Origin: Acidobacteriota bacterium
GTDB lineage: Bacteria > Acidobacteriota > Thermoanaerobaculia > UBA5066
Reading direction: 5' to 3'
Length of the DNA stretch: 64,000 bases
Assembly: GCA_029781975.1 (NCBI GenBank)
Contig: JAKOVQ010000016.1
Location: 1-64,000 of the forward strand
The notes beneath the pieces are model-generated. The model was not told the DNA's origin. It did not search any database and saw only the letters and a list, made by a program, of their open reading frames with translations. The translations under genes were made by a program, and so were the position numbers. This document shows, piece after piece, positions 6,953-13,654 of this stretch (position 1 is the stretch's first letter; the number at the start of each line of letters is the position of its first letter).

Positions 6953-6996
6953 GGACGAAATGTACCAAGGGGGAGCGGACGACCCATACTCGGGGA

Positions 6997-7740
6997 ATGG
7001 CGTCCTTCTCGGACCTCTCCCTGAAGAACCGGATCTTCATGGCGACCTACCGCTACCGGTCGCTCGACCCCGTCCCCTTCGCCCCGCCGCGCCGCCCGCT
7101 CGTCGAGGCGCGGGTCGCGCTGGTCACGACGGGCGCCGTCCACCGCCCCGACCAGGAGCCGTTCGACGAGGGATGGAAGGGGGGCGACCCGTCGTTCCGC
7201 GAGATCCCCGCCGACACCGACGTGGCGACCCTCGGGATCGCGCACAAGTCCGACGCGTTCGACCAGGGGCCGTTCCGGACGGACCGGAACCTCGGCTTCC
7301 CGCTCGACAGGCTCCGCGAGATGGCCGCCCGCGGGGAGGTCGGCTCGCTGAACGGCCGGCACCTCTCGTTCATGGGCTCCATCACCGCCCCGGGACGCCT
7401 GACGGCCGACTCCGCTCCCCGCGCGGCCGACCTCCTCGCCGGGGACGGCGTCGACGTGGCGCTCCTGACCCCGGTGTGACCGATGTGCCATCAGACCGTC
7501 GGTCTGATCGCCGGGGAGCTCGAGAGGCGCGGGATCGCCACGACCTCGATCACGCTCCTCGCGGAGGTGACGCGGAAGGTGCGGACGCCGCGCGCCCTCT
7601 TCGTCGACGCCCCCCTCGGCTCGCCGCTGGGCCGCCCGGACGACCCGGAGCTGCAGACGGCGATCCTCCGCGCGGCCTTCGGGCTCCTGACGCACCCGGG
7701 GCCGCCGCCGGTCCTCGTCCCCTTCGCGGGTCCCGCCTAG
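6997..7740 (+). CDS. Selenoprotein, glycine/D-proline reductase selenoprotein B family (Sec161)
   Basis: The gene reads as two same-frame pieces separated only by a TGA at 7477-7479. Read through, it gives 247 residues. The TGA falls in ALLTPV-U-PMCHQTVGLIA, and in relatives of this family the aligned position is commonly Cys in a PxCxxCHQT motif, so the site is a UxxC redox pair (Sec161, Cys164). A perfect hairpin starts 10 nt after the TGA, with GU in its apical loop at +19/+20, as in bacterial SECIS elements. The upstream part carries typical blocks (HKSDAFDQ, NLGFPLDRL, GEVGSLNGRHLSFMGSI). Expected to be a cytoplasmic thiol-redox or reductase protein; the substrate is unknown, and neither a proprotein cleavage site nor other Grd/Prd subunits are nearby. 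A CATACT element ends 6 nt before the ATG. A conventional gene caller would split this into 160- and 85-residue pieces. Confidence 0.87.
7490..7508 (+). promoter_or_regulatory. Bacterial SECIS hairpin for Sec161
   Basis: ATCAGACC (7490-7497) pairs perfectly with GGTCTGAT (7501-7508) around a GTC loop. The loop GU lies 19-20 nt after the UGA, nearly the spacing in Escherichia coli fdhF mRNA, where SelB contacts it. The stem lies inside the coding sequence and also encodes the conserved residues after the UxxC motif. Confidence 0.82.
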
Positions 7741-11453: not shown

Positions 11454-11562
11454 GATTCGGAGAGGATAAACCAGCGGCGCCCCGGCCCCGCGCCCCGCCT
11501 CCCCCCCGCCTTGACGCTCGATTTCGGCGCGGCGTACCCTGCGCTCGGTTCTTTGGACTGGG

Positions 11563-11685
11563 TTTCATCCAGAGCGGCGGAGGGACGGGCCCTGCGAAGC
11601 CGCGGCAACCGGCCTCCCGACGGCGACGGGCCAGGGGGGCGCCAGGTGCCAATTCCCGCTCCGGGCAGACCGGGGAAAGATGAAA
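11563..11685 (+). promoter_or_regulatory. SAM-I (S-box) riboswitch
   Basis: The 290-bp gap before the methionine genes holds an S-box aptamer. P1 is TTTCATC (11563-11569) with GATGAAA (11679-11685). Conserved core elements appear in order: CAGAG, GGAGGGACGGGCCC, GAAGCCG, GGCAACC (11604-11610), AGGTGCCAATTCC (11644-11656), a P4 hairpin CTCCGG/CCGGGG, then AAAGATGAAA closing P1. SAM binding should repress the downstream fusion gene and metH. The expression platform in 11686-11743 is not obvious; there is no T-tract, so control of ribosome access at GGAGGAG is more likely than termination. Confidence 0.93.
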
Positions 11686-11743
11686 TCGAGGCCGAACGGA
11701 CGCCGACGCCCGGTGCGCCCCTTCGTCCTCGGAGGAGCGCCGT

Positions 11744-13654
11744 ATGAAGCAGGACATCCGCGAGAGGCTGAGGGACGAGGTCCTCGTCGCCGACGGGGCG
11801 ATGGGGACGCTCCTCGTCGCGCGCGGCGCCGCCCCCGACAGCCCCCGCTCCCCCCTCTCCGTCGCCTCCCCGGACCTCGTCAGGGAGGTCTACGACGACT
11901 ACGTCGAGGCCGGCACCCGGATCCTGACGACCAACACCTGGGACGCGAACCGCGCCAAGCTCGCCAAGTTCGACTGGGCCGACTCCCTCGAGAAGATCAA
12001 CCGGGCGGCGGTCCGGCTGGCGCACGAGGCGGCCGCGGGCGAGTACGTCTACGTCGCCGGCGACGTCGGCCCGCTGGGGGAGCTGGTCAAGCCGTACGGC
12101 CCCCTGACGAAGGCGATGGTCCGGGAGCTCTTCGCCGAGCAGATCCGGATCCTCGTCGAGGAGAGGGTCGACCTCCTCCTCTTCGAGACCTTCTCCTCCA
12201 CGCTCGAGGTCCTCGAGGGGATCCGGGCCGCCCGCGAGATCGCGCCGGCCCTTCCCGTCCTCGCCTCGATGACGTTCCTGGCGGACGGGAAGACGACGTT
12301 CGGCACCGGCGTCGTCGAGGCGCTCGAGGCGCTGGAGGCCGCCGGGGCCGACGTCGTCGGGATCAACTGCACGATCGGCCCGCAGGAGTCGCTGGAGGTG
12401 ATCCAGAAGGCGGTGTCGCGCGTCGGGGTCCCGGTCAGCGTCATGCCGAACGCGGGCTACCCCTGGAACGTGTCGGGCCGGACGGTCTATCCCGCCACGC
12501 CCGACTACTTCCGCGAGGTGGCGCGCGACTTCGTCAGGAGCGGGGCCGCCATCCTCGGCGGCTGCTGCGGCACGACCCCCGCCCACGTCGCCGCGATGGC
12601 GCGGGAGGTCTCCGGGAAGCGGCGGCGGGTCGTGGAGAGGACGGCCGCCGTCGTCGTCTCCGCCCCGGCCCCCGCCGCGGCGCCGGAGGCGGCGCTCGAG
12701 ACGTCGGCCCTGAAGCGCAAGCTCCTCGACCCCTCGGCCCTCATCGTGACGGCAGAGGTCGAGCCCCCACGCGGACCCGACGCCTCGGCGGCTCTCGAGG
12801 GGGCCGCGCTCCTCCGGAAGCTCGGCGTCGACGCGGTCAACGTCACCGACAACCCGATGGCGCGCCTGAGGATGTCGTCGATCGCCGTGGCCCACATGAT
12901 CCGGCACGAGACGGGCGTCGACACGGTCTTCCACTTCTCGCCGCGCGACCGGAACGTCCTCGGGATCCAGTCCGACCTCCTCGGGGCGGCCGGGCTCGGG
13001 ATCAAGGCCCTCCTCGTCGTCGGCGGCGACCCGCTCAAGATCGGCGACTACCCTCAGGGACGGCACGTCGGCGAGGTCGACACCCTCGGCCTCCTCCGGC
13101 TCGTGCGGGGGCTGAACGCCGGCGTCGACATGGTGGGAGCCCCGATCGGCGCGGCGACCTCGTTCGCCATCGCCTGCGCCGCGAACCCGGCGGCCCGGGA
13201 CCTCGACACGGAGATCTCGAAGCTCTCCGCCAAGATCGAGGCGGGGGCGACGTTCGCGCAGACCCAGCCGGTCTACGACGTGGCGGCGCTGGACCGCTTC
13301 TTCGCCCGCCCGGAGTCGCGGGCGATCCCGATCCTCGTCGGCCTGATCCCGCCGCGGAGCCTCAAGCAGGCGCTCTACTTCGCCAACGAGGTGCCGGGGA
13401 TGGTCGTCCCGGAGGAGGTCCTCGCGCGGATGCGCCGGGCCGCCGAGAAGGGAGTGGAGTTCGAGGCGGAGGAGGGGCTCGCCATCGGCCTGGAGCTGGC
13501 GCGCGCCATCGTCGAGCGCTCGCGCGGCCTCCACCTGATGCCGATGGCCCGGTACGACGTCGTCCGACGGGTCCTCGAGGTCCTCCCCGGGCGCGCCCAC
13601 CCCGTCCCGAACGGAGCTCCCGAGGCCGGCGCCGCGCCCGGAGGCGGGCGATGA
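11744..13654 (+). CDS. Bifunctional homocysteine S-methyltransferase / 5,10-methylene-THF reductase
   Basis: A 636-residue fusion like Bacillus YitJ. Residues 1-300 are a homocysteine methyltransferase barrel ([12 protein letters not shown] start; zinc ligands in GINCT and the GGCCGTTP motif). Residues 325-615 are a MetF-type flavin-dependent methylene-tetrahydrofolate reductase ([30 protein letters not shown]). An Ala/Pro linker joins them. The MetF half makes 5-methyl-THF. Its stop overlaps the metH ATG (ATGA), so the two are translationally coupled, and both follow the SAM-I riboswitch. In Bacillus yitJ is likewise S-box controlled. GGAGGAG precedes the ATG. Confidence 0.95.

Follow-up and report, generated by a model that had tools for sequence, protein, structure and literature searches.

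A predicted UxxC selenoprotein related to PrdB and GrdB in Acidobacteriota

An acidobacterial gene related to the reductase subunits PrdB and GrdB carries an in-frame UGA codon that, on strong comparative evidence, almost certainly encodes selenocysteine (Sec). The gene lies in a window of 64,000 nucleotides, the whole stretch of DNA analysed, which belongs to the draft genome of an uncultured member of the phylum Acidobacteriota (5.37 Mb, 54 contigs, 96% complete). By analogy with its relatives, its product is probably a partner-free, PrdB-like UxxC selenoprotein that acts as a selenol/thiol reductase. When Sec insertion at the UGA and this partner-free reductase mechanism are taken together as a single statement, the balance tips modestly in its favour.

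An in-frame UGA and the machinery to decode it

Translated with table 11, the interval 6997–7740 yields two open reading frames of 160 residues (6997–7479) and 85 residues (7483–7740), so that a gene caller would split the gene, as a preliminary description of this DNA had warned. We confirmed that the interval forms one frame once the TGA is decoded, and that the TGA opens a UxxC motif (U161 in UPMC). In a search of the whole genome with the PrdB model, the gene is the single match (127.3 bits). The features discussed below are:

6985–6990, + strand: -10-like element CATACT, 6 nt before the start codon and also found in four orthologues
6997–7740, + strand: PrdB/GrdB-like predicted selenoprotein gene, 247 residues from ATG to TAG, with the TGA read as Sec (U161)
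7477–7479, + strand: UGA codon for predicted selenocysteine 161, the residue that opens UPMC (UxxC)
7486–7488, + strand: codon for Cys164, which completes the UxxC pair and hardly varies in the family alignment
7490–7508, + strand: SECIS-type hairpin of 8 bp, with arms AUCAGACC (7490–7497) and GGUCUGAU (7501–7508) and the loop GUC (7498–7500)

The placement of CATACT 6 nt 5′ of the ATG, a pattern seen in none of 100 shuffles (region 6985–6999), suggests that the mRNA is probably leaderless; in the orthologues L024, L025, L026 and L028, CATACT likewise precedes the start codon by 6–7 nt.

If the UGA encodes Sec, the genome must carry selA, selB, selC and selD, and all four are present: a tRNA-Sec gene (selC, 65.9 bits) whose anticodon is TCA in DNA (UCA), selA (425 bits), selB (307 bits in its main segment, 330 once its neighbours in the frame are counted) and two copies of selD. 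One selD copy (L119, G000:C15:537242–538171) has an in-frame TGA in SACAG-U-ASKLP, the position at which SelD selenoproteins carry Sec, and is itself a predicted selenoprotein; the second copy, on contig C2, is free of TGA.

The codon is conserved as TGA in all 74 homologous loci covered by a first survey. When the survey was extended to 118 sequences, 101 had TGA in the Sec column, 12 had Cys, 4 had Ser and 1 had Glu; the label of this column requires 6 changes on the tree, compared with 16.5 after shuffling. The UGA thus stands at a Sec/Cys column of the homologues, and the alignment bears out the proposed exchange of U and C at residue 161; Sec and Cys even alternate within one distant clade (Cys in L144 beside Sec in L158). 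The accompanying claim that relatives commonly carry Cys did not hold, as close relatives overwhelmingly have Sec, and Cys, Ser and Glu occur solely in more distant clades. Across six orthologues, the part after the TGA (dN 0.13–0.21, dS 0.44–0.81) resembles the part before it, and the 79 codons after the TGA retain 75–80% amino-acid identity. With dN/dS well under 1, these sequence comparisons indicate purifying selection on both sides of the TGA.

Several loci depart from the common motif. L144 and L158 are sisters in a CPxxCHRT/UPxxCHRT clade with one extra motif residue (UxxxC), and their sequences point to a recent Sec/Cys exchange. A stop-free clade (L142, L143, L145 and L148) has Ser (TCA or TCG) at the Sec column and keeps the second Cys (SxxC; SRLCHQT), and L146 has Glu there; such loss of the catalytic chalcogen is unexpected in a PrdB-like family. 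At L161 (G281:C91:14600–15900), two in-frame TGAs give UPIU (UxxU) and the hairpin at the usual place is degraded, which reflects either a double Sec or a sequencing error.

The nearest relatives are found in metagenome-assembled genomes (MAGs) of Acidobacteria and Thermoanaerobaculia, followed by Acidimicrobiales, with single homologues in Myxococcota, Alphaproteobacteria and Chloroflexota. A homologue is present in 100 of 396 acidobacterial genomes. By hand count, 60 of these genomes have the TGA form, and selB exceeds the cut-off (242 bits, read as about E = 1e-72) in 59 of them; in the exception, the 370-contig draft G002, a selB match over the cut-off was not found. Of the 40 genomes whose homologues are all stop-free, 5 lack a selB match over the cut-off, and for all genomes that lack the TGA form the count with selB is 183 of 336. 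The direction of this co-occurrence is as predicted for the Sec reading, and the Fisher probability of 5e-13 overstates its strength because the genomes are related and not independent.

A covarying hairpin downstream of the UGA

The preliminary description had placed a perfect 8-bp hairpin 10 nt 3′ of the UGA and likened its geometry to that of the Escherichia coli fdhF element. The stem is exactly as claimed, starts 10 nt after the UGA and covaries in relatives. Plain dinucleotide shuffling gave no significant signal for the hairpin (z = -1.07). When synonymous codons were varied with the protein held fixed, the 8-bp stem of the window gave P = 0.003, and the same control gave P = 0.002–0.025 in other clades whose stem is perfect. 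In a set of 35 sequences, base-pairing is retained in 95.7% of cells and three base pairs have changed on both sides, with 10 double-change cells; none of 500 shuffles reached this score, and sliding the partner columns destroyed the covariation. In several clades, for example, the base pair is preserved because a Thr to Ser change (ACC to TCC) is matched by GGA in place of GGT at the Gly codon, and in other relatives CAT to CAC accompanies ATC to GTC in the stem. The distant pair L105 and L106 has the stem CGCGCC/GGCGCG. No stem was found at this place in the Cys homologues tested. The perfect stem is not kept in full in L041, L096 and L108, and the standard form is not shown by the TGA-form loci L096, L155, L157, L158 and L160. 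Together, these comparisons point to a SECIS-type hairpin maintained by selection just downstream of the UGA. In fdhF, the loop G/U occupies positions 23/24, counted from the U of the UGA as 1, and there is a bulged U. In the window the loop G/U is at 22/23, so that the likeness holds to within one nucleotide, although it is not exact and the bulged U is absent.

The TGA could instead be a nonsense mutation, an assembly error or a real stop that ends a 160-residue protein, as would suit an in-frame stop under table 11 in a draft of 54 contigs. Such a codon would hardly be kept in 74 loci, with purifying selection continuing past it, a covarying hairpin behind it and the Sec machinery present, and given this comparative evidence we regard that explanation as very unlikely. 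Genome-wide reassignment of TGA, for example to Trp, found no support and has a negligible probability: the recognisable neighbouring genes (PSP1, ROK, PGI and HMT/MTHFR) terminate at TGA, and therefore the genetic code is not reassigned; stop-free homologues have Cys, Ser or Glu at the column and never Trp; and a tRNA-Sec with a UCA anticodon is present.

Family placement, structure and genomic context

The proposed membership in a GrdB/PrdB-like family is upheld by PF07355, the PrdB/GrdB superfamily, which matches over its gathering threshold (30 bits versus 22), and by the PrdB model TIGR04483, which ranks first in NCBIfam. The TIGR04483 score of 133.5 bits is under the 300-bit cut-off of this equivalog, and the model of full-length GrdB, TIGR01917, gives 30.7 bits against a cut-off of 602.

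AlphaFold2, run on the family alignment, returned a model with a pLDDT of 96.2 and a pTM of 0.93. In this model, residue 161 is in a turn between a β-strand (154–158) and a helix (164–177) that starts with Cys164. Invariant or nearly invariant positions include 161 (Cys in the alignment file), C164, P102, R199, D64, R68, D96 and G208. A search by sequence found no solved relative; a match to 7rmy (E = 7e-5) was dismissed, since it spans 31 residues and 7rmy is a protein designed de novo. Fold searches gave no clear match. The best VIA-align hits (Z = 8.0) were LacI-type Rossmann-like domains, a likeness that may reflect merely a common arrangement. There was no solved PrdB or GrdB among the fold-search matches, and no thioredoxin fold among the top ones, all of which were weak (best Foldseek E = 0.013).

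Searches of the window genome found neither the pyruvoyl partner of PrdB (PrdA) nor the GrdE and GrdA that accompany GrdB. PF09338 (PrdA/GrdE) and GrdA (PF04723) were not found in it by searches that detect both in the phylum members G206 and G390, and PrdA TIGR04480, a model without a positive control, was not found either. The claim that the protein stands alone therefore holds, with the controls positive in relatives. Across the phylum, PF09338 occurs in 2 of 396 genomes (G206 and G390), where it adjoins distant GrdB-type homologues; GrdA occurs in the same pair out of 8 genomes tested, and G390 has separate lone copies of the homologue too.

The neighbours of the window gene encode PSP1, a ROK kinase, PurD and a homocysteine methyltransferase/MTHFR protein. 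ORF clustering of the window together with 64 loci (65 sequences in all) revealed no neighbour conserved across clades, with ORF calls from a simple script that may miss short or odd genes. Pfam annotation of ten adjacent genes likewise returned an ABC transporter, Met-tRNA synthetase, NUDIX, TauD, CoA-transferase, HlyD and others, none common to clades. The window genome has four matches to COX1-family oxidases. On the + strand, a SAM riboswitch (RF00162, 84 bits) precedes the homocysteine S-methyltransferase and MTHFR-domain gene (window 11562–13654).

Possible activity and known relatives

We propose that SelB, carrying the Sec-tRNA with its UCA anticodon, binds the 7490–7508 hairpin, so that the UGA at 7477–7479 would be read as Sec161. 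The product would belong to the PrdB/GrdB family, have the size of PrdB and work with neither a pyruvoyl subunit (PrdA/GrdE) nor GrdA. The Sec161 selenolate may attack an electrophile, which could be a disulfide, a peroxide or, as in PrdB/GrdB, a polarised C–X bond; Cys164 could then resolve the intermediate as a Se–S bond, and a thioredoxin-type dithiol might recycle the Se–S form. All steps beyond Sec insertion are inferred from family resemblance and the motif alone. The chemistry may also differ between clades, given the Ser clade and the Glu homologue, which have neither Sec nor Cys at the column. The protein is unlikely to take part in Stickland-type fermentation of amino acids, because terminal oxidases are present in the genome and the reductase partners are missing.

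Attack by Sec on a substrate held by a partner subunit is the chemistry proposed for PrdB and GrdB (PMC13188914, PMC10838667); in the window genome that partner was not found. This chemistry, together with the match of all 54 family-alignment sequences to the PrdB model, would fit a true B subunit of a D-proline or glycine-type reductase whose diverged pyruvoyl partner is encoded elsewhere and went unrecognised. We consider this improbable, as the score is 133 bits versus a PrdB cut-off of 300, PF09338 and TIGR04480 are absent here while PF09338 stands beside the GrdB-type copies in two phylum members, a conserved neighbour is absent and terminal oxidases are present. Somewhat better placed, if still doubtful, is the view that the protein is not an amino-acid reductase and serves as a thiol peroxidase, disulfide reductase or detoxification reductase that depends on Sec (reductive dehalogenation being one example), which would be one specific form of the partner-free reductase that we favour. 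Its appeal lies in UxxC as a redox pair, in a genome with terminal oxidases and in the proposal that a GrdB homologue reduces fluoroacetate (PMC10838667), but a substrate-specific neighbour was seen at no locus examined. On the broader view of a partner-free reductase, there is about an even chance that the gene represents a widespread family of Sec-dependent reductases or peroxidases in Acidobacteriota and Actinomycetota, related to PrdB/GrdB, lacking a pyruvoyl subunit and with a distinct activity hidden under the 'PrdB' name.

The window protein resembles D-proline reductase PrdB (TIGR04483) in length (a 238-position model, aligned over 20–216) and in having a predicted Sec in UxxC, and differs from it in falling short of the 300-bit equivalog cut-off, at 133 bits, and in lacking PrdA and a prd operon. 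With GrdB of glycine/sarcosine/betaine reductase (PF07355, TIGR01917/01918) it shares the C-terminal half (195–401 of 431), including the Sec, whereas it has no N-terminal half, its genome has no GrdE or GrdA, and its motif is UPMCHQT instead of the UxxCxxC described for GrdB (PMC13188914).

A PrdB-named UxxC selenoprotein family was already known, and the name has been applied to selenoproteins in marine metagenomes since 2005. The Sargasso Sea metagenome yielded 42 Sec genes named proline reductase PrdB, with UxxC (PMC1088965), Global Ocean Sampling (GOS) counted 235 Sec and 110 Cys forms of 'PrdB' (PMC2398784), and 'proline reductase PrdB' is among the most frequent selenoproteins of ocean surveys (PMC2398784, PMC9402790). 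As described there, the marine family is like the window gene in its relation to PrdB/PF07355, its UxxC, its UGA-encoded Sec and its excess of Sec over Cys. The marine proteins were named by similarity and, in the accessible text, described without neighbourhoods or partner genes, whereas the window gene belongs to an acidobacterial genome in which partners were searched for and not found. To this picture the present analysis adds the distribution of the homologues within Acidobacteriota, a SECIS hairpin that covaries, and searches in which the partner subunits were not found. In Acidobacteriota, a homologue occurs in 100 of 396 genomes and PF09338 in 2 of 396. Should most ocean-survey 'PrdB' proteins likewise be without PrdA, the annotation would be misleading and the name would cover a common selenoenzyme without a known reaction. 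The window gene is small and well modelled and has Cys and Ser relatives, and therefore the question is directly testable.
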